From: Asparagopsis taxiformis
Lineage: Eukaryota > Rhodophyta > Florideophyceae > Bonnemaisoniales > Bonnemaisoniaceae
Direction of reading: 5' to 3'
Assembly: GCA_030407315.1 (NCBI GenBank)
Contig: JALQPE010001047.1
Span: forward strand, 1 to 64,000
Length of the DNA: 64,000 nt
This document shows positions 1 through 64,000 of this stretch, piece by piece. The notes under the pieces are model-generated. The model was given only the letters and a program-made list of their open reading frames with translations. It did no database searches and was not told where the DNA came from. Positions within the stretch are counted from its first letter, which is position 1; every line of letters begins with the position of its first letter. A program made the translations under genes and the position numbers.

Positions 1-1
1 A

Positions 2-2428
2 GGATGCAAGAGAAAGCGGGGCAGCAGCACTCGTCCGGAATCAGAGCAAAATTTTCCAAACACTACTATTCCAATAGCGCCGGCGGGGGCTTCAAAGCGG
101 CAAAAAAAATCAATGCTACAAAAACAATATTGCAATGAAGCTTTGATACAGCTGCAAAGATTTCTACACAATTCCAGTGCCACCTTTCGGTCTTCGCAGC
201 AAGAAGATGCGGTAGTTGCTGCGTTTCAAGGTGCCCATGACCATATTGTGGTGTTACCAACGGGTGGCGGGAAATCCATGACGTTCATGCTGCCGGCGCT
301 GGCAAAGCCAGACATGGTCTCGGTTGTCATTCTTCCCCTGATTTCATTGCAGCTAGACGTTCTGCGTCGTCTTGCCCAAGCTGGAATCCCAGCTACTCCA
401 TGGGCCAATCGGTTCCAGTTCGAGGCGCGCATCATTGTGGCTAGTGCTGAGCATGTATCGCACAGCAGCTACAAGGCATTCATTGCAGAAAAGTCTAAGC
501 TCGGCCAGCTGCACGCTGTTTTCATTGATGAAGCACACCTCGTGTTTCAGCACGACTCATTTCGGGGAGCCATGGCTCTTGTGCCGTCCAAGATTCGACC
601 GGTCGGCACAGCGTGTCCCATATTCGCTCTGACAGCTACTTGTCCACCGCGTGCAGAGTTGGTTCTTTCCCAGGCTTGCGGCATGCGTAGTCCAGTTACA
701 ATCCGCAGTACGACGACACGCTCAAATGTTGCATACACTGTACAATGCACGACATCTTTGCAGCAGCACCAACAGGACCACAATCTTTTCGTCCTCACTA
801 GTCGGCACATATCACGAATTCTAGAAAAACAGCGGCAACTTCACAAACCGCAGGCCTCAAAACACAGTCGCACAAGTAGTACTCGAATCATAGTGTACGT
901 GCAGACGCGGGAACGAGTGCATGCAGCGTGCGGTCATTTGGCAAAGGCATGCCCACAGGCTTCCTTTGTTCTCTACCATGCTGGTCTTCCACTTTATATG
1001 CGACAGTCTGCAATGGAATTGTTTTGTGCAAATACATGCAGAAACAATGATGGTTCTGATGCTGCTATTGGTCTTCCCAGTGATACCAACGGTCGATCAG
1101 CAGACTCCCACAGAGCAGTGCAAGACAAACCTATTGTCATGGTTGCAACTTCTGCTTTTGGATGCGGTATAGACTACCCGGAGGTGCGTGCTGTGATTCA
1201 TTGTGGCTTACCTCAAACACTTTTAGACTTTCTGCAAGAAAGCGGAAGAGCTGGTCGTGATGGTAAGCGCTGTGAATCTATTCTGCTGGCTGCAGATGTG
1301 TACCAGATGAACGAAGAACAATTGAGCGATAATAACAATGATACTAATGTGCCTCGACCAGGTAATAGTCTAGGGGACCCAAGGCTCCTGGTACAAAGTA
1401 AGGTAGCTTGTCGTCGTTGGGTACTCGACTCTTTCGCTGATGGAAACCACACAGACCAGACCTGCATTCAGCGTGAGCTTACGCCGTGTGATTTGTGCAC
1501 TACCAGCACCAGTGATGGCAGCAGCAGCAGCAACAGTAATAGTAAGGATGGCGAGGAGCTGGAGCATGGAAAGGTGCGGCTGGAGGAGCCAGACATCGCT
1601 GCAGCAGCTGCTGCTCAGCATCGCCAGTCACAATTTCAGTCTGCACCTCCTCCATCTTCAATGAACCTGGCTCGGCCTGAAAGTAGCTTAAAGCCAACAC
1701 CAACGAGAAAAACATCAAATGGGATTGATACAAAGAGGGCACAGGCTGAGACAGCGGGAGCGTCTACAATCGAACAGAGTCGTTCAGGGCTTTGTCCTGC
1801 ACCGACGGCGAAGAAATTAGATCCCGTTTCGGTGGCCGCACTGTCTCCGTTTGACCTTGGAACACTTGCTAGGCAATGCTCTGCCAATGCAGGAGATGCT
1901 GCAAGTGAAAAGCATGCCAACAGTGTCGAGGTTGCTGTAAAGCAGGCCAATGATGTACGTATGACCAGCAGTCTACTCGATCATACGTGTGTTCCGTGTA
2001 CTGTTCGACAGAAACGCAACGTGCGTCACACTACAGAGCGTCCGGCATGTTTTGGGTCTCGTTGCTTACGTTGTGCTTCAGCGGGTCATCGTGCGGCCAA
2101 CTGCCCACTCAAGCTCATTTCGTCTACAAGGAAAGGCGGTGGATGTTACCAGTGCTCTATCGGGATGATAGCTGGACAAGTTGTGCATCCGGTTGGTGTA
2201 TACGGGAAGAAGTGCTGCCCCATCAAAAAGCTCATGGCAATGTGTATAATGGCTTGGGAAGACAAAGCGTTGCGTGCGAGCATATATGCCCATGCTGCGG
2301 AAACGAGAAGGTTCTCTGATACCGTTGATTTTACAAATTGGCTGCGAGGTTCCGGGAACAATTCCGAGTTCGGTCTCGGTTGCATGGTCCACTGGCTTGA
2401 CAAAACCTTACACCTAGCTGTTCCTTGA
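2..2428 (+). CDS. C2H2-tyrosine recombinase-RecQ helicase fusion, copy A (3' part only)
   Basis: This is the 3' part of the long recombinase/helicase gene, open from the window edge and equivalent to residues about 1076-1883 of the complete copy at 16722-22373. It contains the whole RecQ-like helicase: Walker A PTGGGKS near nt 257, DEAH near nt 527, ALTATCPP, and motif VI QESGRAGRDG near nt 1235. It ends with the CCHC zinc knuckle (C-X2-C-X4-H-X4-C) and a Cys-rich tail. The recombinase half lies outside the window. The ATG at 113 is an internal methionine (M1113 of the full protein), not a start. The first dozen bases differ from the other copies by an extra base, probably a contig-edge error. 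Within the gene it differs from copy B at 2291 (C instead of T, His instead of Tyr), matching copy C. Confidence 0.9.
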   Translation, partial: GCKRKRGSSTRPESEQNFPNTTIPIAPAGASKRQKKSMLQKQYCNEALIQLQRFLHNSSATFRSSQQEDAVVAAFQGAHDHIVVLPTGGGKSMTFMLPALAKPDMVSVVILPLISLQLDVLRRLAQAGIPATPWANRFQFEARIIVASAEHVSHSSYKAFIAEKSKLGQLHAVFIDEAHLVFQHDSFRGAMALVPSKIRPVGTACPIFALTATCPPRAELVLSQACGMRSPVTIRSTTTRSNVAYTVQCTTSLQQHQQDHNLFVLTSRHISRILEKQRQLHKPQASKHSRTSSTRIIVYVQTRERVHAACGHLAKACPQASFVLYHAGLPLYMRQSAMELFCANTCRNNDGSDAAIGLPSDTNGRSADSHRAVQDKPIVMVATSAFGCGIDYPEVRAVIHCGLPQTLLDFLQESGRAGRDGKRCESILLAADVYQMNEEQLSDNNNDTNVPRPGNSLGDPRLLVQSKVACRRWVLDSFADGNHTDQTCIQRELTPCDLCTTSTSDGSSSSNSNSKDGEELEHGKVRLEEPDIAAAAAAQHRQSQFQSAPPPSSMNLARPESSLKPTPTRKTSNGIDTKRAQAETAGASTIEQSRSGLCPAPTAKKLDPVSVAALSPFDLGTLARQCSANAGDAASEKHANSVEVAVKQANDVRMTSSLLDHTCVPCTVRQKRNVRHTTERPACFGSRCLRCASAGHRAANCPLKLISSTRKGGGCYQCSIGMIAGQVVHPVGVYGKKCCPIKKLMAMCIMAWEDKALRASIYAHAAETRRFSDTVDFTNWLRGSGNNSEFGLGCMVHWLDKTLHLAVP

Positions 2429-2530
2429 TATCAAAACAGTTTACTGCTGCCATACAGTCCCTTATTACGCTCCGTGATTGACTACCATAAAATAGACAAG
2501 AGCGAGCTCGGTTGCTAGAGCTCGTCCAGA

Positions 2531-2536
2531 AATAAA
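2531..2536 (+). terminator. Candidate polyadenylation signal of the recombinase/helicase gene
   Basis: AATAAA lies about 100 nt after the TGA stop of the gene ending at 2428. The same hexamer recurs at the matching place in the other copies (22476 and 62171). Its position fits a eukaryotic 3' UTR, but no transcript evidence is available. Confidence 0.4.
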
Positions 2537-2740
2537 GTCCCCTAAACATTCGTTCACTCCACGACTCCCCTTATCCCCCTAATGATCGCATCCTCTCTCT
2601 ACCGCTCTCCACTCGTTCAGTATTCATATTCAGATATAAAATCCCCACAGCCCCTAGCTGTGAGCATAAGGGCTGGAATCCCCCTATACACACACACACA
2701 CACACAATCCCAGAGCCCCACTACCACACCTACAACTACT

Positions 2741-2792
2741 ACTACAATGTATCGGGCCTGGACTTTGGCCCCGGGATAGAATAGTATAGGAA
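2741..2792 (+). repeat. 52-bp att-like direct repeat, site 1 of copy A
   Basis: This segment is repeated at 13359-13410 with 50 of 52 bases identical (T/C at base 11, G/A near the end). Its core is an imperfect inverted repeat, CCGGGCC (CGGGCC at this site) and GGCCCCGG around TGGACTTT, followed by GGGATAGAATAGTATA. The two sites flank the block carrying the methyltransferase-SET and ParB-dioxygenase genes. A short inverted core with direct copies at module borders resembles a tyrosine-recombinase crossover site, but it could also be a shared 3' UTR element. That role is inference. Confidence 0.55.
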
Positions 2793-2974
2793 TTTTTCGT
2801 TTCCACCGTTAAAATATGCACCGGAATAGGAATTACATTCAACTAGACTGGCTAGACTGGTTGCAGTTTGTTTACAGTCAACTGCATTTTGCATGCTAGT
2901 TGAAGGATATAAATATGCCTACTTGTCCAGCGCGCGCGATGACACGTTAACGTGTGCGATCCTGAAAATGTATT

Positions 2975-5900
2975 CTAGCATTCCCAGCAATTATAATCAT
3001 TGTGATACTCTATATACAGCTCTTCTCCGGCTTCAATATCTCGCAATGCTCGCACGACCACCAGTTCTGGTGACTCCAGCATGTCGGCTTGCAGAAAACC
3101 GTGCTGCAGGTCTTCCACAATGCATACATTTGCCTCTCGATTCTCCGTTCCTTCATCATCATCCAATCTTCTTGGGTCGTTAATAAAACGAGCACAGCAG
3201 AACGGTGCCGGATAGATGTACACTGAGTGCTCAGCTCCACGACTACATTTTGCTCGTTGTGCAACACCCACCCCATACTTTTCAAAGCTTCTCCTGCCCA
3301 CTTGCAGTACACCACGCCCGTATGAAACGTCTCTCTTACCATTTTTCACTTCAGCCGACGAAAGGTCAGTATACAACACAGTGCCGTAGTACGCACAGAT
3401 GCGCTCTCCACGTGACAACTTCTTCCGTGTAAACAGTCCCAGCCCCGACCATTGATGCTGAATTAGTGATTGTTTCACCTCGAGGCTCAATGTGCAAGCT
3501 TCAAATGCTCTGAGCGTGCTTTCTGGCATTGATTCAAACCACTGTCTCAATGACAGGGGCCACTCATCCGGGCGTCCAGTGTACATCATGCTATTCTCAC
3601 TGCTCTGTGCAGTACCATTGTCACCACCGTTCATACTACTACTAGTTCCAAGCGGTTCATGATGAGCAGTTATAGTTGTTTGACAAAGAAACCGATGCAA
3701 ATAGTCTGGAAGCTTTTGATACATTACGAGGCCGTCGGGTGCACGCAGTTGACAAACTGCAGTGGATAGTCGTCGTTGCTGTAGCGGGTGATCCAGAAAC
3801 TGTGAAGCGCAATGGTGGGCTTCCGTGTCACCTCGAATGGTACTTTTCAAGTCCAGTAGCTGTCTTGCAAAAGTATCATACACCAACGGCATTGCACATG
3901 TAATACATTCCTTGTCCAGGTCGCATCCAACAAACACGCGATGTTCGCTAATTTCCATGCACGCCCGGGCTGTAGAGAGTGTGCCAGCAAACATGTCAGC
4001 AACAATATCTCCAGGCCTCGAGTACCTCTCGATCAGCTCCTTCAGAGTCGAAACTTTCTTTTGCGTTGGACATAGTAAAGTCTGGCCGACTAGTCTGCTG
4101 TTGCTCTTTGTGCGTGCATCCCTGTCATCGTCTGCTGCTCCCAACAATGTTCCATTAGATGTTCGTATGTTCTTCCATATATAGTCGTCATTGAAGTGCA
4201 GAGATGTGACATTTTCCGTAATCAAATTCGAGTGTGCGAAATATGTTGACTGGACATGACCGTAAAGTTTGTAGCAAACCATATTGGCAATAGTTTCCTG
4301 GTCTGCACCGCGCTGTTTCCAAAAGTGAAGAGCACCGTTCCATATATTGACATGACTGAGCACGTTCCTTTTTCCATCTCCCATGCGTTCGTACAATTTT
4401 TCTAAATCTGCTGCTGACGCCACTGCATGTTCAGTTGGTGCTGGGAGGAATACTAGTTGTGCACTTTCCACAAAAAAAACTGGACCGCTACGGTTATCAA
4501 TCTCGTCCCGGCTGCTGACACTCGTATTGCATTCCATGTCGTCAATTTCTTTTTCGTCTCCGCTCCGCATATTCTTGTCAGTACTATCACCGACGATGTG
4601 ATCACCTCCCAGACTACCCTGGGTAGAGCAACTTCTATATGTTTCCAACAGATACTTCCACTTGTAAAACTGCTCCTGTGTGCAGAATACTATTCCATGC
4701 CCGCCTGGTCGCAATAGCGTGTCCCACAATCGGACGCAACGCTTCATTTCCTCTTCGCAGAGCTCTCCAGAACACTCTCGATTGTTGGCTTCGTCTTCTG
4801 AATTATCAGAGCAATCGTCTTCTGAATTATCAGAGCAATCCATGTATGAAGACGACGACGACGACGAGAATGAGTTACTGCCTCTTCTATCAGCGCACAC
4901 TTGCTCCTCTTCGACTTCTTGCTGCGAGCCAGACGGCGGTTCGGTAATAATGAGCTGAACAAAGTTTTCAATGCTTTCATAGAGGCCACTTTCGTCACAG
5001 GTTATTAGCTCGTCAAAGGAGACGTCATAGATGCGGCAGTATGGCTGCATATATTTCAATTCCAAGTCACTTTCCAGAGCAGCCAGTTGCTCATGCTGTT
5101 CATGCTCTCCAGCTGTGGGAGGAGTATCAAAATCATCATCACAAGTTCCTTGCATAGAGACATATTGAAACGCTATGTTGGTCAAATCTCCTTTTACGCG
5201 TTCAGTGGTACCATCAGAAGCATAACCATTAATATTGGTAGAATAGGTTTCTCGCTGTGAGCCCATTATGCATCTACCAACGGCGGCTGTAGATCCGCAC
5301 CTCGACAGAGCTTCATTGTTGTAATCATCATCGTTCTTGGTATCCCTAATATCAGTAACAGCAACAGCACCATGAACGTTCTCCAAACTGTTCATAGAAT
5401 TTCCAGAGGCCAAACCACCAGTTCTACTGGCAGTTGCTGCATTGCAGACTCTGCGCACAATCCAATATTCCGACTTGCTCCTGCTGCTGGTAGGTCTTTC
5501 TTTGTTGCTCATGCTTCTCCTGACGTCTACCTGTAGTCCCAATAAATTTTTCACAAAACCTGCAAGCTCTTTGAAGCACGAAGGAAGTAGCTGGGGATTT
5601 TCGGGCACCCTGTATGCATGCAGGAATAGGCCAAGATGAGCTTCGTTCTCATTCGTGTAAAGGTCGCCCATTTGTAGTGCGCTGTGCAAGTGGTTGAAGA
5701 ACATGCCAGTGATGTGGCGCATTGCTGCGTCCTTTCTACTGCAACGATCCCAGGCTGCTGCATTGCTGCAATCCTCTCTTTTGTGCGCAGCACCAGTATT
5801 GTTCCTGTTATTACCATCGTTTTGATACAGCGAATAGCACTGTGTAGCAGGCGAAAACCCATCGGCGCGTGAGTGCAAAACAGAAAAAGTGCTGCTAGAA

Positions 5901-6760
5901 GCGTCGAATAGTATGTATGGTGACAATAGCTCCTCGTATGTTCTCGGATCATCCGTGGAGCTAGCAGTTCTCGCAGCCAGAGCATCCCAGGCTCGTGTGA
6001 GGGTCTGGACAGTACACGCAATTCGGTCTATAGTTTCTCTTGTCATGCAACGGCGAGTAATGCCAGCCTTTCTCTTCAACGGGCTGCGGCTATTCTTGGT
6101 CAGGCATTGCACGGTGGCAGCAGCCGATTCTGACGGCTGCGAAACAGTGCAAACAGAGTGGAAGACTAGGATGACTTCCAGCGGACAAATTTTATGCAGC
6201 GGAAACTTGCTCTTCTTGTTGCGCCTATCCAACTGTTCGGTAGAGAACATTGTCGTGGCCAGAAATGAGCTGCCGACGAGCATGGTTGCAGGCACCACTC
6301 CCGTTACGACTAGATTAGTGCAGAGCTCTCCGATGCGCGCATCTTCTTGTGAAAACCCGTAGAGTGCGATAGCAATGCGGATAACTTGCTTGACATACTC
6401 TGTTCCCAGCTCTTTCAGAGCGGCCGATCCGTCGCGGAACACAGTTCGGTAGAGTTGGTTACTGCGGACTGCATTCCTAGCCGCAAGCATAGCGCACAGC
6501 TCCAGTGCGTTTTCGTCCGTTTGTCTCTCAATCCATAGAGCAAATTCTGTAGTTCCCTCGTTCCTGTTGCGGCTGAAATTTTCTGCACTGATGCATGTCC
6601 CTTGTTCAGTGATTGTACCACATTTGTTCTTCTCCCATTCTGAACACTTCATTGATGCTAGCATGAGGTTTAGCAGCTTCTGCATCGTTTGTCTTCCGTC
6701 TCTTTTCATTGCAACACAAGAGTCTGTCGGTCGTTTGGTCATTCTGTCCGTGGTCACCAT
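2975..6760 (-). CDS. DNA N4/N6-methyltransferase-SET domain fusion protein, copy A
   Basis: The gene encodes 1,261 aa without introns. Residues about 595-960 form a beta-class DNA methyltransferase. A motif IV-like stretch at 602-610 reads VQLIITEPPS where D/N-P-P-Y/W is usual. Then come LLRPGGHGIVFC at 682-693, CPTQKK at about 897-902, motif I ADMFAGT at 921-927 and GCDLD at 945-949. Motif IV before motif I is the N4/N6 (PF01555-like) order. Ser/Asp/Glu-rich inserts (about 613-672 and 715-758) interrupt the fold. Residues about 1098-1261 are a SET domain: GLGLFTRKKLSRGERICAYY, then FINDPR in place of the usual N-H motif, then AGEELYIEYHNDY and a final WEC. It likely acts in the nucleus, methylating DNA and possibly histone lysines. 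The degenerate motif IV leaves DNA-methylation activity uncertain. The N-terminal 590 aa are unrecognised. The gene converges on the helicase gene and diverges from the ParB-dioxygenase gene. Confidence 0.85.
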   Translation of the reverse strand: MVTTDRMTKRPTDSCVAMKRDGRQTMQKLLNLMLASMKCSEWEKNKCGTITEQGTCISAENFSRNRNEGTTEFALWIERQTDENALELCAMLAARNAVRSNQLYRTVFRDGSAALKELGTEYVKQVIRIAIALYGFSQEDARIGELCTNLVVTGVVPATMLVGSSFLATTMFSTEQLDRRNKKSKFPLHKICPLEVILVFHSVCTVSQPSESAAATVQCLTKNSRSPLKRKAGITRRCMTRETIDRIACTVQTLTRAWDALAARTASSTDDPRTYEELLSPYILFDASSSTFSVLHSRADGFSPATQCYSLYQNDGNNRNNTGAAHKREDCSNAAAWDRCSRKDAAMRHITGMFFNHLHSALQMGDLYTNENEAHLGLFLHAYRVPENPQLLPSCFKELAGFVKNLLGLQVDVRRSMSNKERPTSSRSKSEYWIVRRVCNAATASRTGGLASGNSMNSLENVHGAVAVTDIRDTKNDDDYNNEALSRCGSTAAVGRCIMGSQRETYSTNINGYASDGTTERVKGDLTNIAFQYVSMQGTCDDDFDTPPTAGEHEQHEQLAALESDLELKYMQPYCRIYDVSFDELITCDESGLYESIENFVQLIITEPPSGSQQEVEEEQVCADRRGSNSFSSSSSSSYMDCSDNSEDDCSDNSEDEANNRECSGELCEEEMKRCVRLWDTLLRPGGHGIVFCTQEQFYKWKYLLETYRSCSTQGSLGGDHIVGDSTDKNMRSGDEKEIDDMECNTSVSSRDEIDNRSGPVFFVESAQLVFLPAPTEHAVASAADLEKLYERMGDGKRNVLSHVNIWNGALHFWKQRGADQETIANMVCYKLYGHVQSTYFAHSNLITENVTSLHFNDDYIWKNIRTSNGTLLGAADDDRDARTKSNSRLVGQTLLCPTQKKVSTLKELIERYSRPGDIVADMFAGTLSTARACMEISEHRVFVGCDLDKECITCAMPLVYDTFARQLLDLKSTIRGDTEAHHCASQFLDHPLQQRRLSTAVCQLRAPDGLVMYQKLPDYLHRFLCQTTITAHHEPLGTSSSMNGGDNGTAQSSENSMMYTGRPDEWPLSLRQWFESMPESTLRAFEACTLSLEVKQSLIQHQWSGLGLFTRKKLSRGERICAYYGTVLYTDLSSAEVKNGKRDVSYGRGVLQVGRRSFEKYGVGVAQRAKCSRGAEHSVYIYPAPFCCARFINDPRRLDDDEGTENREANVCIVEDLQHGFLQADMLESPELVVVRALRDIEAGEELYIEYHNDYNCWEC

Positions 6761-7822
6761 GGTTGTCTGTCTGTCTGTCAGTCAGCCAGTCAGTGATTCT
6801 TCTCTTCAGTCACCTTCACTAGCACTTCAACAGCTGGTTACAGTGCAACTTACCGTGATTTGGGGTGGCTCTTAGTAAACATATTCGCGCGTGCACGCTA
6901 CTCCAAGGCTGATCAGATCCCTGCACGTTATCAGGATGAATGATGGCCGAAGAAACGTGAAAATGCCAGGGCACACTCACCCGCGAGCGGTCGGAAAACA
7001 GACAGTAGATAGGGTGATCCTGCAATTCCTGAACAATTCCCAAACGGCCTTTTCAGCATGTATACATGGCCCCTAGGCGCGCAAACGATAAAAATCGGAA
7101 TTTTCACAATTCCAATATTTTCGAAAATTACACTCGACCAGCTGGTAGTTGCCGGCCGCCGCCGCCGCCGTTTGCCATGCCAGCCAATAGGTTGCATTCA
7201 TCTGATTGCCTGCCTAATAAATCTCCAATGAGAAATATTCCCGCCACCGCTGCAGACATAATTGTCCCGTACAGCCACTCATACCTAGCTATATGCGTAT
7301 GCACAGCAAATGCATTGCGCGAAACCTTGTCATACCAATTTCTGCAGCCACCCACCGCCGTCGCCGAACGACTAAATCACAAAACCCGATCTCGAGATCC
7401 CAGTTGCGTGGCTACCTGCCACTAACACTTTTTTCTGGACCTTGAGGCAGACTGGCGGTTCGGCCAACCAATTCGATCTACGAATCAGAGCGATTTTCTG
7501 TTCAGTTGCTGGCGGCAACAACCATATTCTGCTAACCACTACTACTTTCTTCCTTGCTTCATTCCACTACGACCACCACCTTTTCCATCGACATGCGCGC
7601 GCGCCTCCCCTGCCTGTCAACGAGAGCAAAACCCAGCAGCAGCGTACGAACAGTGGGCGAGTAGGACTACTGCTGCACAGAAGCATTCCAGTACACCGTT
7701 GGTTGTAACACGGAGCAAAACCATTTTCCTACTATACACGCGCCAGCCACAAACCGTGTATTCTTTCCTCCTGCTCAACCTCAGTCACTGTGGTGCAACA
7801 AAATCCCCTCAATCGACAAGGA
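6761..7822. promoter_or_regulatory. Divergent intergenic region between methyltransferase-SET and ParB-dioxygenase genes, copy A
   Basis: This 1.06-kb segment separates two divergently transcribed genes, so it must contain both promoters unless one gene has a distant start. I see simple runs near the SET-gene start (GTCTGTCTGTCTGTCAGTCAG region at about 6767-6790), a GCC-repeat run near 7154-7171, and no open frame with recognisable protein. No convincing TATA/Inr pair was identified. The segment recurs at 26706-27767 and 34681-35755. Confidence 0.5.
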
Positions 7823-12344: not shown

Positions 12345-12352
12345 GGACTTGC
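12345..12352 (+). repeat. Outlying GGACTTGC motif
   Basis: This is a single upstream copy of the 8-bp motif that clusters at 13156-13255. It sits beside a short inverted context (CGGACTTGCAATCCG). Significance alone is low. Confidence 0.3.
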
Positions 12353-52512: not shown

Positions 52513-53640
52513 TTGTGGAGTATGCGTCTGGTGGTTTGTAAAGCTTGCAGAACGGGATAGGGATGTGGGTGGCTCCATTTTATGAATACATGAATACAAA
52601 TATTCAGGGTTGACGAAGCGGAAAGGCATACGCTCATACATGTATGAGTTTGCATAGTGGAGAAAATATTTACATCGAAATTTACATGGAAGAGATGGAG
52701 GTTTTAAGGATGAGGTATGAGAGGAAGAAAATTCTTCTGTGGTATGAGGATGTGTTCTGTGGGGGGTGGATGGAATCTTGGGATGGGATGGTACAGGGGG
52801 AAGTGGAAATGTACGGAGTGCGGGTTTAGATTGGAGTGTGATTCGGAGAGGAGTGCCGACAAGCATATTATGGGGATTGGGGAGACGCTGCGGGGTGTTG
52901 GGGTAGTGAGGGCGGAGGAGGTGTTTAGGTGGGACCGTAGGAGGGTGCGGTTGAAGGCCCCGAGAGGAGGGGGTTTTAGGAAAGTGAGGAGAAAGAGGTG
53001 GGAAGGGGGGTGGCGTCTGTTCTGGCTGTGGTGAGTGGGGATGTGATGGGGAAGAAGAGGGTTATTGTATTTGGGGAGGGAGGGGAGTGGGAGGATGGGT
53101 GCGAAGTGGGGGTTGATATGTGTTTCAGAGCGGGGAGGTTTCTGGGGAGACGGCGGGGGAGCGGGAGCGTGGGCCGGTGGTGGTGGTGGTGGTGTATACG
53201 GTATCGAAGATGCGGATGGCGTGGGGGCATGGAGCAGGTGAGGGAGGGAGGGGTGGAGCAGGTCGAAGAGTAAGCTGCAGGGGAAGTTTGTGGAGAGGGC
53301 GAAGGAGAGGGGTTGAAGGTAGAGGAGAGAGGGTATTGAAGAACAATACGTTGCAAAGGTGATGGGGGAGAGCATGGTCGAGGGGATAGGGGATGTTTTT
53401 CCCTATTCTGAGGTAGTATGAGGACTGGTTATAAGAAATCTGTACGGTAGAGCAGAAAAGTAGGTATGGAATGGAGGTGTGCACCGTGGAAGCGGGGATA
53501 GGTAGCTGAAAATGCGTTCTAGAGTGGTATTGGGGGTGTTTGAGGTACAGTACGGGGGAGGTGAGCACCAAATGGAAGGGGGTGTGAGCGAGAGGATGAA
53601 AAAATTAAAGACAAAATTGGAGTCGACCGACAAGGAAAAA
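52513..53640 (+). other. G-rich strand with possible zinc-finger coding remnant
   Basis: The + strand is strongly G-rich and purine-biased from about 52680 to 53340. A frame at 52717-53034 reads ...KWKCTECGFRLECDSERSA..., followed by DKH, a possible CCxH-type zinc-binding stretch, then an Arg/Gly-rich tail. The reading appears to continue in another frame at 52998-53273. It may be a frame-broken remnant of a nucleic-acid-binding protein, or only low-complexity sequence. The minus strand gives Pro/Ser-rich frames, which I read as shadows. Confidence 0.25.
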
Positions 53641-53923
53641 TAGAGTGGTCGCCGTGATGGATGCGGACATCCATGTCGAGCAAGGCGGCAGAAATTTCTG
53701 GGGTCGAAATTTTTGAATTTCTGAACCGGCGCCCGTCCTAGGTTGACATAGACATGGCGGAAGTCCATCCCGAGGGGGACATCCGTGGTACTAGAAACAA
53801 TGAATGTCGTCCTAGTAATACTAGACGTACTAGACCGCATGGACGTCCGGATCTAGGCGGACATCCAAAAATACTGGAGAACATGGACGTCCGCCTAGTA
53901 ATACTAGGTGTACTAGAGGTTGT

Positions 53924-53956
53924 GGACGTCCGCGTCCATTTCCGAGAACACAGACG
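53924..53956 (-). repeat. Right terminal inverted repeat of the 11.9-kb element
   Basis: Its complement begins CGTCTGTGTTCTCGGAAATG and contains GGACGCGGACGTCC, matching the left end at 42073-42103. TA follows at 53957-53958. Confidence 0.75.
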
Positions 53957-56416
53957 TAAAAGTGCGTGGTAAGCAGAGGTCACCAATCTACAGTTCAGCA
54001 CCGTTTCAACGTACACCGTTTGTATTGTATGTGTGTCTATTCCACACAGACTAGGACAGCTCTTACTTAGCTCACTACTGCTACGCATCAATCGTTTCTC
54101 TCATTTGGTCTACCAAATTATGAGATAGTGCAGTACAATCTCACAAGGAAACACAGTGCTACAATGCTCTTTCCACTGCCTTCCATTCACTATTTTAGAG
54201 ATATAGCTGTACTTGCACTTGCAAAACTAGTTTCTCTGTTTAAACAGAGGGGTAGTGCATATTCACTCAATCTCAACACCATGGGCTTATCGCCAGCTCG
54301 AGAGAGGATCCTCTTTGTGCAGATTCAAAGTTTCATAGTATTATCCACACATGGTAACGAGTCTATGACGTGAAGGCTTGACGTCATACATGCAACTGCA
54401 CACTGCACGAGTACTTTCCATCATTCCATTCATTAATTCATGCATCTGTGCATCTTTTAGTCGCCAAATCATCCACCGGGCAATGTGCAGAGCTGATTTG
54501 GCAGAATCCTACCCGTTGCTAGCATGGATTTTCTCCAATAAAATGGGATACTCCTCGTCCTACCCAATCTATTACAGTGTTTTGATTACGACCATGATCT
54601 GATACTACTATTTGCGGTAAGCAAATTTCATCCGCATTTTGCAATCAATTTCGCCGACCTTCATCCCGTGATACTATTATGGACACCGCCGGTCAGGTCT
54701 CATTCTGGACACTTCATCAGTCACATCACTCGCACCCAATTGGCCAGGCCACCGCCGTAAAGATCAAATCAAAATTTTAAATGTGGTTTGGTGTCCTGAT
54801 ATATCATCGGCCTGATCTGCAATATTCCTCAAGTCTACCGCCTGCATGCCTACCTACCTTTCTATCTAATCCCCTAATCAAACCAGAGAATCCATCGACG
54901 CACTCATAATGCATCCAGCATGCAACATATATGATGATATGGTGAACACGCGCGCGCGCGCGCGCGCAAGTTTCGAGCTCACAGCCAGACAAATCACATC
55001 CCGTTCATTTCTATCTTCTGACCGGGTTTCTGGACCAAGCATCCATGGATATTGCTGGACGCAACGACAATCTCAAATGAGATTGCAATCAGTATTATAT
55101 GTGACCCGTACACAACATGAAATCAGTCTTTCAATCATGCTGTTTCTGGGCGACTGCAGCCAAAAATATCATTCCTTCTTCCACCTCCTTAATTGTCCTG
55201 GATATATTGGCTTCGCAGAAATCCCCTAAAATCCCCACATTCATGCACGCAACCCCTTGTGGCAGCGCATAAGGCAAATTGACTGTCTGCTAGCAATCCA
55301 GTACAACAAATACTACGTCACGCCATTTGCTTTGCAGTCATAGGTTGGTCCAGCTGCTAAATTGGCAGTTTCAAACTACACAAACCGTATGGTTCCTGTG
55401 GTGGTTTGAATCTGCCAAGTCAGCAGCAATATTGATCTCTGGTAAGTTTTATGCGCACATATATATCAGTATCCATGGTTCTACCATTAACTCTATGACG
55501 TTTCAACTACATGCAGTGGATCAACCGTTCTGGCGACATTTCGGAAGAGCTCTGCGTCTACTGTAAACTATCCAAACTATATTCGTCATCTAATTTCGTT
55601 CATTTCTGGGTTCCATTAACAGAACCGTTCATTTCCATACTGCTCCCAGTCCACGTTTGATTGATCGAAAAGCCACTCTATCGCTCAGAACAATCCATTA
55701 TTGTTGGATATATATAGAGCAAAAAATAACAGTTACAGTACTCAAGGTCCTGCAAGTACTATTTCCACGTGCTGACAACAATACTATTGCTGTCTCCGCG
55801 ATTAATCGCCCAGCACAGTATGAGAGGCAGAGCTTCTCCACGTTGCCTAGTCGACAGTCTACGTCATACTGTGTAAAACTGCTCTACATGTCCTAATTGC
55901 ACTTTTCATATCTGTTTCTGTCCGATTTTTGCCTTTCGTAACGATTATCAACAATCAATCCCGTCACGGCCATGTGCTCAATCATAATCCCCAAAGCCCA
56001 AAAACTCCTGGGTGATCTTTGAAATCACATGGTGTCATTGTATGCCATATCAACAACGTTTAATTTGTTATATTCCGAAAACTCCATAGTGAGCTCCAAT
56101 TCACCAAGTTCAGGTCAAGGATTATTGGTATGCATGGTTCATCTGGCACACCAGTAAACATCGACATGCAAGTGTTTCTTCGCCCAATCCGTTGGCACGT
56201 TCAGCTGCTATCTGGTTTCCACTCCCAGTCAATGTATCTATCTAACTAACTATCTATCTATCTATCTGTGAGGCGACCAGCCAGTTACGAGCAAAAACAC
56301 CATACTGGAAGAGTTCAACGGCTTCAGATGAGTTTTGCAACACAGTTTTCTGCTCCATCGCCCAATCCCCCGTGTTGTTCCGAGCGCAGAAGACCAGCAT
56401 TTAAGCGCGCATCGCA
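53957..56416. other. Upstream region of recombinase gene, copy C
   Basis: Equivalent of 14262-16721, resuming after the insertion. I noticed one substitution against copy A (55817 A, 16122 G). It holds the same (CG)n and CTAT runs. No gene seen. Confidence 0.6.
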
Positions 56417-59400
56417 ATGGACTGCTCGTCAGAATTTTTCCAACTGCTCACAGCAACGACAAAGCCCCTCCCGCACCAAAGCAACACACACACATCACAC
56501 ACATCTCACAACGAAATCCCCTCAATCCCCTACACTTTCCATCTTCTCAAACACCAGACTACGACCAGTCTATCAACAGTATTACTGACACAAGCCAACG
56601 GTCGGCCAATTCGAAGCTTAAAGGTAACGATGGAACAGCCACAGCGATCTTTTCGCACAAATCATTCCCATATCCACTACAACATTCTTCTCGACCTCGC
56701 ACTGTGCAGCCATGAGAAGTGTGGTCATGCACTAAAACTTTCCACTGTTTCGCGCCACCTCAGACAAGTCCACAACGAGTCTGCGCAAGCTGCTGCAGCG
56801 TTTCAGGCTGAAATAAGGAAAACTCAAAAATCTGATTATATTCCTGATACCAAACTTCCTCTTCGAGGCCGCTACCTCAACGCCGGTAAAGCGCAGCAGT
56901 CCCACCAAGAGTCAGATCATATGCTGTTTGCACTCCCATTTCTGCCAGTCCAAACGTGTTACAAGTGCCAACGATGCTTCAAAATTCATCGGACAATAGA
57001 GTCTGCAAAGAGGAATTGTCACGGTTGTACTACTGGTACTCATGTTAACCGTTCTATTCTCAATGAGCCTGCTGTGCAAGCGATGGCGGCAGAAGCAGTA
57101 AATGGTAATGCTGCTCAAAATTTCATGGCTATAAAGGCACAAACAATTTTTGGCGGAAAGAAATCAGCTCTATTCCAGGTCCTAGATGATTCGGCCGTCG
57201 ACCAAAACATTGCAGCAATTCTGCGAGCGCAAGAAGGATCTCCTCCGGCTGCTCCAGCAGCAGACCTCCTACGTGGCATGAATACTGACGTCACACATCT
57301 CGACGCTTTCCTCTCCGAGTCCAGATTTGATGCGCTCCTGGCGAGCAATCAACTTCCGATGCCCCAAGCATATGCTGCTGCTGCATGGATCTCCACGCCG
57401 GTTGCAACCGCTATCAGACGTCTCTTGGCTGCATACATTACCACTGCACAAAAGCTCTGTGCCGGCAACGTATACATCAAATCCCACACGTTTCTTGGAC
57501 ACCCTGTGCGACTAGCATTAACGCCAGAAACGTGCGATAAATACTCTTCTCATGTGTCACGCCTGCTGACATTTGCCATGCACCTGGTCTCAACCACAGC
57601 TGATACTACTGCCAGCGAGTCGGCAGAGGAAAATCAGCCCTGGAAAGAGGTTATCACAGAGGAACAAAGAGAGCTCATCAAAAGTCTTGAGAACAAAATG
57701 CGCAACGGTGGTAAAAATTGCCGCCCTGGTAGTGGAAAATACACTGATGATGATGATGGTATTGGTGGGAGCACATTGCAAAAATCTCAACTATCACGCC
57801 CTATTGCCACACTACACCGCTTCTTGCGGTCTGTGCTGTTTGATTCTTCACTTGCATCAAATAGGCTCATGCCATTGTTTGTAGCATGCACTGCTGTTCG
57901 GAGCAGCAATCACAGCCCGCAGAAAACATTTCGTTTCGCCACTGCCTCGGAAACGTCTCCTATTCTCGCCGCTATAAAGTATATGGCAAAAGTGTTCGTT
58001 GTCAATCATGTTTACGGTGGCCTAGAAAATGATCAGAGCCCCGAAAACACCAGCACCGATGTTCAAGCGGCTTGGGCTTGGGTACAGCACTGTACGTCGT
58101 CAAATGCGGACACTGGCATCATGTACATTTCCAACACACTGGCAAATTGCCATAGGCTGGCTCCAGCCGAGGGTCACCACATTCGATTCGTTATATGCCC
58201 GCTCCACAAGTGGTGCGGCCTTGTAGACGGGGTCGAGCTCTCACTGCAGCATCTGGGACAGCGGATTGGGGTACTGCAGGATAGTGCCTGGAAACTGATA
58301 CACACACATCTCCTATTCGGTCTCAAGATATCCAATGACTTTTGGAGCCTTTGCCACCAGCTGCAGGACATAATGTCAGATCGCACAGCGGGTCATTGGT
58401 TTGCTATGCATCCTTCAAACTATGACATGGTCACCAAGTGGAGAAATGCCTACCTCATTCATGTACAGCCCCAGCTATTCTGCAGAAACCCTGATGTTAG
58501 TGGTGATGGTCATGATGATGATGATGATGATGATGATGATGTTGCCCAAATGCATCCCACAGCTGTGCGCAAGTTCCTGCATCACTGCCAGAGTCTGCAG
58601 TCACTAATTTACACTCTGATACAGCTCACATCTGGTGGCCCAGCGCGCGCATCCGAGTATGCACCTCTGCAAGTTCGCAATACAACAACAACCGCACGCC
58701 ACATATACGTTTCGCAAGGGCAGATTCTCACGATCCAGTCGTATCATAAAGGAAGGACTATGGAGGATGGTTTGGGAAAGCCGGTAGCACGATTCCCAGA
58801 CTCTGTTTCTTCCGGCATTCTGCTCGTTTATTTGGTGCTCATACGTCCTATCGAACTATTAGCAACTGGAATGATGGAAAAACATACCCAACAGCAGCAG
58901 CAGCAGCGGAAGAAGAAGAAGAAAGAGTATCCTGGTTCTCGCACTGTTTCTGCGGCGGATATGGACCGTGAGGATGACAAACAAGATGAAACCAATGGTG
59001 ATGAAGATACAGGAAAGCATAGAGACTTTTTATTTAGACACTCTACTTTCGTATGCTCACCAGCACAGCTCCGGGAGCGATTCAGTTCACTGATGGAAAC
59101 TGTGGACATACCATTGGGAACAGTGCAGTATCGCCACTGGTACAGCGCTGCTGTGAAGCATTTCATTCCCTCCATTCTAGCTGCTGCAGATACAGATCGA
59201 GATGAACGTGGCATTGAGAATGTATCAAACGTAGTACAACTGCATAGGCAGAGCGGCCACACAGAGGCTACAGCCAATCAGAGGTACGGCGTTTCCACAG
59301 GAGATATTTCGCACATGACTGGTACACAGCTGCACATGTTCCGAGCAGCTAGTGAGATCTGGCATCGCGCATTGGGACTTCGTACCGGTCCTGCTGTTGG

Positions 59401-62068
59401 ATATCCTCATACGAGCACAGTCAACGTGGTGCATGAGAGTAGAGTGAGCAGAAATGCGGTTTCCTCAGATTCAATAACAACAAAAGCACCAGCACCAGCA
59501 GCTGCTGCTGCTGCCGCTTCTGCTGCTCCAGGTGCTCCAGGTGCTCAGACTTCAATGGACATAACGTACATTCGTGACAATATAAAACGGATACGGACAA
59601 GTTTGGAAGCTCTCATGTCCAGAATGCCCCCCTTCAAAAAGGGGATCAAGAGAAAGCGGGGCAGCAGCACTCGTCCGGAATCAGAGCAAAATTTTCCAAA
59701 CACTACTATTCCAATAGCGCCGGCGGGGGCTTCAAAGCGGCAAAAAAAATCAATGCTACAAAAACAATATTGCAATGAAGCTTTGATACAGCTGCAAAGA
59801 TTTCTACACAATTCCAGTGCCACCTTTCGGTCTTCGCAGCAAGAAGATGCGGTAGTTGCTGCGTTTCAAGGTGCCCATGACCATATTGTGGTGTTACCAA
59901 CGGGTGGCGGGAAATCCATGACGTTCATGCTGCCGGCGCTGGCAAAGCCAGACATGGTCTCGGTTGTCATTCTTCCCCTGATTTCATTGCAGCTAGACGT
60001 TCTGCGTCGTCTTGCCCAAGCTGGAATCCCAGCTACTCCATGGGCCAATCGGTTCCAGTTCGAGGCGCGCATCATTGTGGCTAGTGCTGAGCATGTATCG
60101 CACAGCAGCTACAAGGCATTCATTGCAGAAAAGTCTAAGCTCGGCCAGCTGCACGCTGTTTTCATTGATGAAGCACACCTCGTGTTTCAGCACGACTCAT
60201 TTCGGGGAGCCATGGCTCTTGTGCCGTCCAAGATTCGACCGGTCGGCACAGCGTGTCCCATATTCGCTCTGACAGCTACTTGTCCACCGCGTGCAGAGTT
60301 GGTTCTTTCCCAGGCTTGCGGCATGCGTAGTCCAGTTACAATCCGCAGTACGACGACACGCTCAAATGTTGCATACACTGTACAATGCACGACATCTTTG
60401 CAGCAGCACCAACAGGACCACAATCTTTTCGTCCTCACTAGTCGGCACATATCACGAATTCTAGAAAAACAGCGGCAACTTCACAAACCGCAGGCCTCAA
60501 AACACAGTCGCACAAGTAGTACTCGAATCATAGTGTACGTGCAGACGCGGGAACGAGTGCATGCAGCGTGCGGTCATTTGGCAAAGGCATGCCCACAGGC
60601 TTCCTTTGTTCTCTACCATGCTGGTCTTCCACTTTATATGCGACAGTCTGCAATGGAATTGTTTTGTGCAAATACATGCAGAAACAATGATGGTTCTGAT
60701 GCTGCTATTGGTCTTCCCAGTGATACCAACGGTCGATCAGCAGACTCCCACAGAGCAGTGCAAGACAAACCTATTGTCATGGTTGCAACTTCTGCTTTTG
60801 GATGCGGTATAGACTACCCGGAGGTGCGTGCTGTGATTCATTGTGGCTTACCTCAAACACTTTTAGACTTTCTGCAAGAAAGCGGAAGAGCTGGTCGTGA
60901 TGGTAAGCGCTGTGAATCTATTCTGCTGGCTGCAGATGTGTACCAGATGAACGAAGAACAATTGAGCGATAATAACAATGATACTAATGTGCCTCGACCA
61001 GGTAATAGTCTAGGGGACCCAAGGCTCCTGGTACAAAGTAAGGTAGCTTGTCGTCGTTGGGTACTCGACTCTTTCGCTGATGGAAACCACACAGACCAGA
61101 CCTGCATTCAGCGTGAGCTTACGCCGTGTGATTTGTGCACTACCAGCACCAGTGATGGCAGCAGCAGCAGCAACAGTAATAGTAAGGATGGCGAGGAGCT
61201 GGAGCATGGAAAGGTGCGGCTGGAGGAGCCAGACATCGCTGCAGCAGCTGCTGCTCAGCATCGCCAGTCACAATTTCAGTCTGCACCTCCTCCATCTTCA
61301 ATGAACCTGGCTCGGCCTGAAAGTAGCTTAAAGCCAACACCAACGAGAAAAACATCAAATGGGATTGATACAAAGAGGGCACAGGCTGAGACAGCGGGAG
61401 CGTCTACAATCGAACAGAGTCGTTCAGGGCTTTGTCCTGCACCGACGGCGAAGAAATTAGATCCCGTTTCGGTGGCCGCACTGTCTCCGTTTGACCTTGG
61501 AACACTTGCTAGGCAATGCTCTGCCAATGCAGGAGATGCTGCAAGTGAAAAGCATGCCAACAGTGTCGAGGTTGCTGTAAAGCAGGCCAATGATGTACGT
61601 ATGACCAGCAGTCTACTCGATCATACGTGTGTTCCGTGTACTGTTCGACAGAAACGCAACGTGCGTCACACTACAGAGCGTCCGGCATGTTTTGGGTCTC
61701 GTTGCTTACGTTGTGCTTCAGCGGGTCATCGTGCGGCCAACTGCCCACTCAAGCTCATTTCGTCTACAAGGAAAGGCGGTGGATGTTACCAGTGCTCTAT
61801 CGGGATGATAGCTGGACAAGTTGTGCATCCGGTTGGTGTATACGGGAAGAAGTGCTGCCCCATCAAAAAGCTCATGGCAATGTGTATAATGGCTTGGGAA
61901 GACAAAGCGTTGCGTGCGAGCATATATGCCCATGCTGCGGAAACGAGAAGGTTCTCTGATACCGTTGATTTTACAAATTGGCTGCGAGGTTCCGGGAACA
62001 ATTCCGAGTTCGGTCTCGGTTGCATGGTCCACTGGCTTGACAAAACCTTACACCTAGCTGTTCCTTGA
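56417..62068 (+). CDS. C2H2-tyrosine recombinase-RecQ helicase fusion, copy C (complete)
   Basis: Intact 1,883-aa gene matching copy B, except His instead of Tyr near residue 1839 (61931 C), where it agrees with copy A. All recombinase residues (R744, K778, H907, H948, Y957) and helicase motifs are kept. The high quality here contrasts with the indel-rich 34.7-42.07 kb stretch, supporting the view that the latter is poor consensus rather than decay. The alternative start at M72 corresponds to 56630. Confidence 0.9.
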   Translation: MDCSSEFFQLLTATTKPLPHQSNTHTSHTSHNEIPSIPYTFHLLKHQTTTSLSTVLLTQANGRPIRSLKVTMEQPQRSFRTNHSHIHYNILLDLALCSHEKCGHALKLSTVSRHLRQVHNESAQAAAAFQAEIRKTQKSDYIPDTKLPLRGRYLNAGKAQQSHQESDHMLFALPFLPVQTCYKCQRCFKIHRTIESAKRNCHGCTTGTHVNRSILNEPAVQAMAAEAVNGNAAQNFMAIKAQTIFGGKKSALFQVLDDSAVDQNIAAILRAQEGSPPAAPAADLLRGMNTDVTHLDAFLSESRFDALLASNQLPMPQAYAAAAWISTPVATAIRRLLAAYITTAQKLCAGNVYIKSHTFLGHPVRLALTPETCDKYSSHVSRLLTFAMHLVSTTADTTASESAEENQPWKEVITEEQRELIKSLENKMRNGGKNCRPGSGKYTDDDDGIGGSTLQKSQLSRPIATLHRFLRSVLFDSSLASNRLMPLFVACTAVRSSNHSPQKTFRFATASETSPILAAIKYMAKVFVVNHVYGGLENDQSPENTSTDVQAAWAWVQHCTSSNADTGIMYISNTLANCHRLAPAEGHHIRFVICPLHKWCGLVDGVELSLQHLGQRIGVLQDSAWKLIHTHLLFGLKISNDFWSLCHQLQDIMSDRTAGHWFAMHPSNYDMVTKWRNAYLIHVQPQLFCRNPDVSGDGHDDDDDDDDDVAQMHPTAVRKFLHHCQSLQSLIYTLIQLTSGGPARASEYAPLQVRNTTTTARHIYVSQGQILTIQSYHKGRTMEDGLGKPVARFPDSVSSGILLVYLVLIRPIELLATGMMEKHTQQQQQQRKKKKKEYPGSRTVSAADMDREDDKQDETNGDEDTGKHRDFLFRHSTFVCSPAQLRERFSSLMETVDIPLGTVQYRHWYSAAVKHFIPSILAAADTDRDERGIENVSNVVQLHRQSGHTEATANQRYGVSTGDISHMTGTQLHMFRAASEIWHRALGLRTGPAVGYPHTSTVNVVHESRVSRNAVSSDSITTKAPAPAAAAAAASAAPGAPGAQTSMDITYIRDNIKRIRTSLEALMSRMPPFKKGIKRKRGSSTRPESEQNFPNTTIPIAPAGASKRQKKSMLQKQYCNEALIQLQRFLHNSSATFRSSQQEDAVVAAFQGAHDHIVVLPTGGGKSMTFMLPALAKPDMVSVVILPLISLQLDVLRRLAQAGIPATPWANRFQFEARIIVASAEHVSHSSYKAFIAEKSKLGQLHAVFIDEAHLVFQHDSFRGAMALVPSKIRPVGTACPIFALTATCPPRAELVLSQACGMRSPVTIRSTTTRSNVAYTVQCTTSLQQHQQDHNLFVLTSRHISRILEKQRQLHKPQASKHSRTSSTRIIVYVQTRERVHAACGHLAKACPQASFVLYHAGLPLYMRQSAMELFCANTCRNNDGSDAAIGLPSDTNGRSADSHRAVQDKPIVMVATSAFGCGIDYPEVRAVIHCGLPQTLLDFLQESGRAGRDGKRCESILLAADVYQMNEEQLSDNNNDTNVPRPGNSLGDPRLLVQSKVACRRWVLDSFADGNHTDQTCIQRELTPCDLCTTSTSDGSSSSNSNSKDGEELEHGKVRLEEPDIAAAAAAQHRQSQFQSAPPPSSMNLARPESSLKPTPTRKTSNGIDTKRAQAETAGASTIEQSRSGLCPAPTAKKLDPVSVAALSPFDLGTLARQCSANAGDAASEKHANSVEVAVKQANDVRMTSSLLDHTCVPCTVRQKRNVRHTTERPACFGSRCLRCASAGHRAANCPLKLISSTRKGGGCYQCSIGMIAGQVVHPVGVYGKKCCPIKKLMAMCIMAWEDKALRASIYAHAAETRRFSDTVDFTNWLRGSGNNSEFGLGCMVHWLDKTLHLAVP

Positions 62069-62614
62069 TATCAAAACAGTTTACTGCTGCCATACAGTCC
62101 CTTATTACGCTCCGTGATTGACTACCATAAAATAGACAAGAGCGAGCTCGGTTGCTAGAGCTCGTCCAGAAATAAAGTCCCCTAAACATTCGTTCACTCC
62201 ACGACTCCCCTTATCCCCCTAATGATCGCATCCTCTCTCTACCGCTCTCCACTCGTTCAGTATTCATATTCAGATATAAAATCCCCACAGCCCCTAGCTG
62301 TGAGCATAAGGGCTGGAATCCCCCTATACACACACACACACACACAATCCCAGAGCCCCACTACCACACCTACAACTACTACTACAATGTATCGGGCCTG
62401 GACTTTGGCCCCGGGATAGAATAGTATAGGAATTTTTCGTTTCCACCGTTAAAATATGCACCGGAATAGGAATTACATTCAACTAGACTGGCTAGACTGG
62501 TTGCAGTTTGTTTACAGTCAACTGCATTTTGCATGCTAGTTGAAGGATATAAATATGCCTACTTGTCCAGCGCGCGCGATGACACGTTAACGTGTGCGAT
62601 CCTGAAAATGTATT
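62069..62614. other. Convergent intergenic spacer, copy C
   Basis: Same as 2429-2974, with AATAAA at 62171 and the att-like repeat. No gene seen. Confidence 0.7.
62381..62432 (+). repeat. 52-bp att-like direct repeat, site 1 after recombinase copy C
   Basis: Identical to 2741-2792 and 22686-22737. Confidence 0.55.
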
Positions 62615-64000
62615 CTAGCATTCCCAGCAATTATAATCATTGTGATACTCTATATACAGCTCTTCTCCGGCTTCAATATCTCGCAATGCTCGCACGACCA
62701 CCAGTTCTGGTGACTCCAGCATGTCGGCTTGCAGAAAACCGTGCTGCAGGTCTTCCACAATGCATACATTTGCCTCTCGATTCTCCGTTCCTTCATCATC
62801 ATCCAATCTTCTTGGGTCGTTAATAAAACGAGCACAGCAGAACGGTGCCGGATAGATGTACACTGAGTGCTCAGCTCCACGACTACATTTTGCTCGTTGT
62901 GCAACACCCACCCCATACTTTTCAAAGCTTCTCCTGCCCACTTGCAGTACACCACGCCCGTATGAAACGTCTCTCTTACCATTTTTCACTTCAGCCGACG
63001 AAAGGTCAGTATACAACACAGTGCCGTAGTACGCACAGATGCGCTCTCCACGTGACAACTTCTTCCGTGTAAACAGTCCCAGCCCCGACCATTGATGCTG
63101 AATTAGTGATTGTTTCACCTCGAGGCTCAATGTGCAAGCTTCAAATGCTCTGAGCGTGCTTTCTGGCATTGATTCAAACCACTGTCTCAATGACAGGGGC
63201 CACTCATCCGGGCGTCCAGTGTACATCATGCTATTCTCACTGCTCTGTGCAGTACCATTGTCACCACCGTTCATACTACTACTAGTTCCAAGCGGTTCAT
63301 GATGAGCAGTTATAGTTGTTTGACAAAGAAACCGATGCAAATAGTCTGGAAGCTTTTGATACATTACGAGGCCGTCGGGTGCACGCAGTTGACAAACTGC
63401 AGTGGATAGTCGTCGTTGCTGTAGCGGGTGATCCAGAAACTGTGAAGCGCAATGGTGGGCTTCCGTGTCACCTCGAATGGTACTTTTCAAGTCCAGTAGC
63501 TGTCTTGCAAAAGTTTCATACACCAACGGCATTGCACATGTAATACATTCCTTGTCCAGGTCGCATCCAACAAACACGCGATGTTCGCTAATTTCCATGC
63601 ACGCCCGGGCTGTAGAGAGTGTGCCAGCAAACATGTCAGCAACAATATCTCCAGGCCTCGAGTACCTCTCGATCAGCTCCTTCAGAGTCGAAACTTTCTT
63701 TTGCGTTGGACATAGTAAAGTCTGGCCGACTAGTCTGCTGTTGCTCTTTGTGCGTGCATCCCTGTCATCGTCTGCTGCTCCCAACAATGTTCCATTAGAT
63801 GTTCGTATGTTCTTCCATATATAGTCGTCATTGAAGTGCAGAGATGTGACATTTTCCGTAATCAAATTCGAGTGTGCGAAATATGTTGACTGGACATGAC
63901 CGTAAAGTTTGTAGCAAACCATATTGGCAATAGTTTCCTGGTCTGCACCGCGCTGTTTCCAAAAGTGAAGAGCACCGTTCCATATATTGACATGACTGAG
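62615..64000 (-). CDS. DNA methyltransferase-SET fusion protein, copy C (C-terminal part, runs off the window)
   Basis: The reading frame is open to the right edge, so the gene continues beyond 64000. The part seen covers about residues 801-1261: CPTQKK, ADMFAGT, GCDLD and the complete SET domain. One substitution is seen (63515 T for A), changing Asp962 to Glu just after methyltransferase motif I. The ATG at 63922 is internal, not the start. Confidence 0.85.
   Translation of the reverse strand, partial: LSHVNIWNGALHFWKQRGADQETIANMVCYKLYGHVQSTYFAHSNLITENVTSLHFNDDYIWKNIRTSNGTLLGAADDDRDARTKSNSRLVGQTLLCPTQKKVSTLKELIERYSRPGDIVADMFAGTLSTARACMEISEHRVFVGCDLDKECITCAMPLVYETFARQLLDLKSTIRGDTEAHHCASQFLDHPLQQRRLSTAVCQLRAPDGLVMYQKLPDYLHRFLCQTTITAHHEPLGTSSSMNGGDNGTAQSSENSMMYTGRPDEWPLSLRQWFESMPESTLRAFEACTLSLEVKQSLIQHQWSGLGLFTRKKLSRGERICAYYGTVLYTDLSSAEVKNGKRDVSYGRGVLQVGRRSFEKYGVGVAQRAKCSRGAEHSVYIYPAPFCCARFINDPRRLDDDEGTENREANVCIVEDLQHGFLQADMLESPELVVVRALRDIEAGEELYIEYHNDYNCWEC

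Follow-up and report, generated by a model that had tools for sequence, protein, structure and literature searches.

A head-to-tail repeated unit of the red alga Asparagopsis taxiformis with a predicted tyrosine recombinase–RecQ fusion protein is a likely mobile element

Introduction

The first 64,000 bases of a 77,733-bp contig of the red alga Asparagopsis taxiformis (JALQPE010001047.1, here C1046; assembly GCA_030407315.1, 141.5 Mb in 3156 contigs), which we call the window, hold a 19,945-bp unit repeated head to tail and encoding three long proteins, the first of which joins a predicted tyrosine recombinase to a RecQ-type helicase. What kind of unit is this, and how did it come to be repeated? 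To our knowledge, eukaryotic tyrosine-recombinase elements are few and come mostly from fungi, oomycetes and animals. The same distribution is given in the Crypton literature (PMC3212892). We consider it likely that the unit is mobile DNA, that it belongs to a group of several element families in the alga's genome, with the tyrosine recombinase–RecQ protein as its key enzyme, and that it integrates at short cores that include its own end.

A predicted recombinase–helicase fusion protein

Protein 1 (1883 aa) is encoded on the forward strand at 16,722–22,373 in copy 2 and at 56,417–62,068 in copy 4, while copy 1 retains its C-terminal part at 2–2428, comprising the RecQ region and a cysteine-rich tail. 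Its predicted layout is an OrsD/C2H2-like N-terminus, a tyrosine recombinase, a RecQ-type DEAD helicase and the cysteine-rich tail. Tyrosine recombinases share the catalytic set R-K-(H/x)xxR-H/W-Y, and the corresponding residues of protein 1 are R744, K778, R906, H948 and Y957. Across an alignment of 21 sequences, R744, K778, R906 and Y957 are invariant and H948 nearly so, and box II does not open with a histidine. The predicted fold of the domain is the catalytic fold of tyrosine recombinases, with Xer, Cre and lambda Int as the best structural matches. NCBIfam and PHROGs returned helicase matches and some weak ones of other kinds (none above the curated cut-off where one exists), the PADLOC matches were helicases as well, and Bloom/WRN-type helicases were found among the weaker database matches. 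Pfam placed OrsD below its cut-off and, at E ≤ 0.1, gave no match in protein 1 to DUF3435, to GCR1_C or to another Crypton accessory domain. Taken together, residues and model argue that protein 1 unites an OrsD/zinc-finger-like region, a tyrosine recombinase and RecQ in one polypeptide. The C2H2–tyrosine recombinase–RecQ order of the original prediction, made from the letters of the window, is thereby upheld by catalytic residues and predicted fold, with OrsD seen below cut-off.

Relatives of the unit and a precise left terminus

Protein 1 has matches on at least 17 contigs including C1046 (25 of 155 candidates scored). A relative unit of 16,952 bp stands head to tail on C255, C2123 and C437, and carries genes for a tyrosine recombinase–RecQ protein (99.6% identical, on C255, to P0007, ena source), a distant relative of protein 3 (29% over 227 aa) and a MAGE/Nse3 protein (PF01454, 2.7e-18). 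MAGE genes gave 19 matches in the genome, 15 of them on contigs with protein 1 matches, two on C59 and C2122, which bear the left end of the 16,952-bp unit, and two elsewhere; none lay on C1046. One example of such a gene is C255:21855-22430. Nse3 belongs, as a subunit, to SMC5/6, a complex that restricts or silences episomes, and the presence of these genes on recombinase–RecQ contigs hints at an extrachromosomal stage. On C703, relatives of proteins 3 and 2 stand in the same divergent order and are followed, at the contig end, by recombinase–RecQ-like DNA (70–76% identity). Equal-scoring recombinase–RecQ genes were also seen on C143, C1007 and C835, with 1858-aa frames on C143 and C835; the retrieved parts of C143 and C1007 held no second protein 1 copy. 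To the right of the truncated array on C2123 (G000:C2123:49500-50500) lies a different abundant repeat of 35-bp units, present at 99–100% identity in at least 40 places (40 of 946 candidates scored).

The array joint of the 16,952-bp unit reads CACTCAT-CCTA-TTAGTATG. A 351-bp query spanning it gave 11 matches, seven to the whole joint, three to the left end only and one weak. The three left-end matches (C2122, C437 and C59) start from base 150 or 151 of the query and differ in their flanks. The left terminus, CCTATTAGTATG, starts at the same nucleotide at three junctions and lies 455 bp upstream of the recombinase–RecQ start. On C59 (299,582 bp), unit sequence begins abruptly at 292,805, abutting Plavaka-type transposon DNA, and extends to at least 297,400. 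The C437 junction sits inside another unit copy, at a CCTA site; there the joint at 16,664 is GAATATCTCCTA-TTAGTATG and the uninterrupted site is GAATATCTCCTACATGC. The core common to the left-end junctions is CCTA; on C519, the sequence corresponding to the C59 target has CCTG. A precise left end and a CCTA core match what tyrosine-recombinase (Crypton-like) integration predicts, and the array joint is as would be expected from insertion at the end of a resident copy, or from a circle. The mobility that had been proposed for the unit is borne out, in its signs, by these relatives, which lie on many contigs and meet different neighbours at a precise left end.

Architecture of the array

Self-alignment of C1046 revealed the head-to-tail unit with its period of 19,945 bp. 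The contig begins inside the unit, with the 3' part of copy 1 (1–14,261), and continues with copy 2 (14,262–34,056, the origin being arbitrary and the right end approximate), an internally deleted or misjoined copy 3 (34,312–42,070), an inserted transposon (42,073–53,956) and copy 4 (53,957–64,000), all copies on the forward strand; beyond the window, copy 4 runs on to ~73.9 kb and copy 5 then extends to 77,733. Outside the transposon, C1046 is unit sequence up to both contig ends, the remainder at 64,001–77,733 included, so that the contig holds no host flank. The unit tail contains 18-bp and 35-bp tandem repeats (12,693–14,204, forward; also 32,638–33,921 and 40,617–42,013). Between copies 1 and 2 the period is exact over 7–13,295 with one substitution (at 2291), and copy 2 (14,264–24,305) differs from copy 4 by three substitutions in 10,042 bases. 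Every open reading frame (ORF) checked is intact, namely that of protein 1 in copies 2 and 4 and those of proteins 2 and 3 in each of copies 1, 2 and 4. No tRNA was found in the window, nor did any Rfam family reach its gathering score there.

The link between copies 2 and 3 is of another quality. From 33,241, bins of 250 bases compared with copy 1 fall from 250/250 to 11–31% mismatch or gap columns, and this segment with a raw-read-like error level (33,241–34,312) ends where the unit passes from position 14,554 to 6,361 (26,306 in copy 2), with ~11.75 kb missing. The link is therefore weak, and the deletion at 34,312 may be an assembly misjoin; likewise, the protein 3 gene of copy 3 (35,723–39,877, forward) is frame-broken, which may reflect residual sequence error. 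The tandem array of the original prediction thus stands in its period, which is real in the assembly, but not in its uniformity, since the noisy deletion joint and the nested 11,884-bp Plavaka-family transposon had been overlooked.

The methylase–SET and protein 3 cassette in two element classes

Protein 2 (1261 aa) is encoded on the reverse strand at 2975–6760 in copy 1, 22,920–26,705 in copy 2 and 62,615–64,000 in copy 4, where the window end cuts a gene that continues to 66,400 in the contig. It combines an N6/N4 DNA methylase-like region (PF01555, 4.9e-13) with a SET domain (2.1e-6), both above the Pfam cut-offs; NCBIfam, PHROGs and PADLOC also returned methylase matches, those of NCBIfam and PHROGs lying below the curated cut-off where one is given. 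Motif IV of N6/N4 DNA methylases is D-P-P-[YF]. Seven of eight relatives carry DPPY or DPPF and the eighth DGPY, and protein 2 has EPPS in this place, so its methylase may be inactive, the SET part being apparently retained. The methyltransferase–SET assignment made earlier is therefore supported at the level of domains, but DPPY is missing. A further observation concerns P0073 (JGI 'DNA methylase', 1134 aa), in which a ParB-like box, IDGAHR, lies N-terminal to the methylase region, so that ParB-like and methylase parts seem to be found in fused form as well.

Protein 3 (1386 aa) is encoded on the forward strand at 7790–11,950 in copy 1 and 27,735–31,895 in copy 2. At motif level it contains a box (IDGxHR) and an H-x-D...H...R pattern, which we take to be ParB-like and dioxygenase motifs, respectively, and both are conserved among aligned relatives; HxD, H and R are shared by four sequences. 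Dioxygenases dependent on 2-oxoglutarate and Fe(II) adopt a double-stranded beta-helix fold with HxD...H. PADLOC gave no match for protein 3, and a PDB sequence search only two, near E 1. Its homology search (7986 candidates scored), the list of which may be filled by low-complexity words, returned P0062 as sole protein, 86% identical over 1370 columns. The proposed ParB–dioxygenase identity is accordingly borne out by conserved motifs but not by profile or structure. Relatives of both proteins are numerous in the genome, at least 34 for protein 3 (34 of 4436 candidates scored) and at least 37 for protein 2 (37 of 3293).

The 11,884-bp insert belongs to a TA-duplicating, Plavaka-related family. 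It is flanked by TA at 42,071–42,072 and 53,957–53,958, its inverted ends align over 48 columns, and the uninterrupted counterpart of its site is present at 14,262–14,263. A 256-base stretch of its right end recurs at 100% identity in at least 40 places, counting that of the insert itself (40 of 511 candidates scored), so the family is abundant and recent. The ORF list of the window yielded no recognised Plavaka ORF in the insert. Long inverted repeats lie inside it (window 45,056–47,226 and 49,845–52,513, one pair of 1356 nt being 100% complementary), possibly another foldback element.

Elsewhere in the genome, related transposon ends are accompanied by cargo and by a transposase. On C519, the same right end (90,605) is followed by a relative of protein 3, a methylase–SET protein with intact DPPY (P0064, whose homology search returned seven proteins, 'DNA methylase' being the sole name among them) and an ORF of 670 aa whose coiled-coil matches are weak. 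On C1007, an ORF with PF18759 Plavaka (4.8e-25) stands before the other transposon end, and this insertion lies in a recombinase–RecQ gene of which C143 holds the uninterrupted counterpart. C1007 and C519 each provide one transposon end, situated at TA; the corresponding sites without an insertion are seen on C143 and C2123, respectively. Pieced together from C519 and C1007, a large Plavaka form would carry cargo genes and transposase in one element. Two unrelated element classes of one genome thus appear, from their gene content, to bear related methylase–SET/protein 3 pairs and to insert into one another, a feature of the Plavaka-type family that had also been overlooked. Because the Plavaka-type transposons of this genome carry related pairs too, the cassette has probably been exchanged between the classes.

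Proposed mechanism and alternative explanations

These findings are compatible with a scheme in which the recombinase would excise the element, or copy it, into a circular form in which the two ends are joined and hold the 4-bp core. The circle would then re-insert at CCTA-like cores, among them the one that ends a copy already in place, and insertion there would produce a head-to-tail array with a period equal to the element length, a step that we carry over from the relative to the unit of the window. RecQ may unwind or branch-migrate the intermediates, and the methylase–SET and protein 3 pair may serve as a self-protection or chromatin-modulating cassette. The unit appears to work like a Crypton without being classed as one. 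More tentatively, and with somewhat less than even confidence, we propose that the group is a new transposon class of eukaryotes, one whose tyrosine recombinase shares a single protein with a zinc finger and RecQ; it would integrate at a 4-bp core, insert into its own end to form tandem arrays, bear the methylase–SET/protein 3 cassette in one lineage and MAGE/Nse3 in others, and have traded the cassette with Plavaka.

Several observations weigh against a mobile element of this kind. The terminus was mapped in the 16,952-bp relative only and was not located in the 19,945-bp unit itself; a search of the window for the relative's terminus gave a single match, with three mismatches, which falls on the insertion site of the transposon and does not stand out from the 0.37 matches expected by chance. 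A 1,200-bp probe from the window's unit matched C1046 only. Even in the relative, none of the 11 joint matches is a right-end-only junction, the right end being seen only inside arrays, and an internal 3.1-kb duplication on C2123 has an imperfect 16-bp joint and leaves the CCTA core unused. Foldseek alone gave no match for the recombinase model at E ≤ 0.001, although a VIA realignment did. As for the cargo, protein 2 is degenerate in motif IV; protein 3 has no Pfam match near significance, its Pfam and PDB profile searches were empty, and its AF2 (AlphaFold2) model failed, with a predicted local distance difference test score (pLDDT) of 33.6 that lends no support to a dioxygenase fold.

The unit might instead be a 19.9-kb extrachromosomal, plasmid-like circle that the assembler wrapped into a pseudo-array, the transposon-bearing copy being a minority molecule or a stitched-in integrated copy. 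We regard this as unlikely, with a sizeable minority chance. It would account for the missing unique flank, for the near identity of the copies and for the noisy segment that stops exactly at the deletion joint, and the MAGE/Nse3 gene of the relatives, given the role of Nse3, would fit an episome. Moreover, 11 of 13 phycobilisome-family matches fall on contig C469, two equal-scoring ones 177,170 bp apart; we read C469 as a plastid of ~177 kb whose circle was wrapped by ~33 kb, so array contigs may be inflated by assembly as well, which keeps the circular reading of C1046 alive and also counts against an integrated array. A circle fits poorly, however, with a transposon-bearing joint followed, one unit on, by a transposon-free joint, with the relative's junction to other nuclear-type DNA beside Plavaka-type DNA on C59, and with C143 and C1007, which share a protein 1 relative with no tandem copies visible in their retrieved parts. 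Alternatively, unequal crossing-over could have built a chromosomal array from one inserted copy without the recombinase. The near identity of neighbouring copies agrees with this, and the C2123 duplication looks homology-driven; nevertheless, the array joint of the relative coincides with the terminus found at three further junctions, and a CCTA core marks the joint on C437. We hold this explanation to be unlikely, its chance being slightly below that of the circle. Of the three routes to a tandem arrangement that had been considered at the outset, integration at an existing copy is thus backed by the C437 joint, and the circle and crossing-over remain its rivals.

Two further explanations appear very improbable. 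RecQ, methylase and SET domains occur in host proteins too, and Bloom/WRN-type helicases are among the weaker matches of protein 1, as would suit ordinary host genes for a RecQ helicase and chromatin enzymes that were tandemly duplicated; such genes would not be expected in many relatives that are broken by or joined to transposons, with precise ends and different neighbours. Large viruses often have genes for helicases, methylases and recombinases, and four IMG/VR loci match protein 1, but only in its RecQ/helicase part. That the unit is part of an integrated large DNA virus is, to the same slight degree, hard to credit, given a unit that is short, is repeated and consists of three long genes, five window ORFs without a structural virus protein above the curated Pfam cut-off, and scans of viral contigs, able to detect close relatives only, that gave no match to protein 2 or protein 3. 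A mobile element integrating through its recombinase thus remains our preferred reading.

Significance and comparison with known systems

For one family of this helicase-fused, head-to-tail group in a red alga, terminus and core are available, so that the chemistry of integration can be tested directly. The methylase–SET cassette common to the recombinase element and Plavaka parallels the capture of TET genes by transposons in fungi and suggests that cassettes acting against silencing pass from one mobile element to another of unrelated kind. In A. taxiformis itself, the figure of the bromoform mbb contig includes site-specific and adenine-specific DNA methyltransferase genes (PMC12115072). 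These methylase genes beside the bromoform locus may be transposon-borne, of the family seen here.

With Cryptons, the group shares a tyrosine recombinase, no terminal inverted repeat being seen, and a short terminal core (CCTA, at the left end of the 16,952-bp relative). Cryptons have direct repeats of 4 to 6 bp at their termini, CryptonS likewise goes without GCR1_C, and the word 'helicase' does not occur in the main text of the Crypton paper as available to us (PMC3212892). The window's element family differs from them in its RecQ fusion, its size of 17–20 kb, its methylase–SET and other cargo and its head-to-tail units. Starships carry the tyrosine recombinase gene near one end, with DUF3435 in the captain, and the present elements resemble them in being large and cargo-bearing with such a gene near one end (455 bp in the relative). 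Starships have been described from Pezizomycotina (PMC12134995), whereas the host here is a red alga, protein 1 has no DUF3435 Pfam match and its recombinase is fused to a helicase. The view that the unit matches neither Cryptons nor Starships therefore stands, by helicase fusion, cargo, size, head-to-tail units and absence of DUF3435.

Academ transposons have a DDD/E transposase. The same holds for Kolobok (PMC9587614), and RecQ is found in both, one instance coming from a rhodophyte (PMC3627910, PMC9587614). Transposon-borne RecQ is thus shared with Kolobok-1_CCri, KolobokH and Academ, but here it lies in the same polypeptide as a tyrosine recombinase. The literature titles and abstract openings searched describe neither an element with such a fusion nor a methylase–SET transposon. 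In fungi, unrelated transposons, one of them Plavaka, have captured TET/JBP dioxygenases, and in oomycetes transposons are known to carry SET genes (Kojima 2025, PMC12730594). The likeness to the TET/JBP fungal transposons is that unrelated transposon classes hold a common captured epigenetic enzyme gene; the difference is that here the shared genes encode a methylase–SET protein and protein 3, the host is a red alga, and one of the carriers is a tyrosine-recombinase element.

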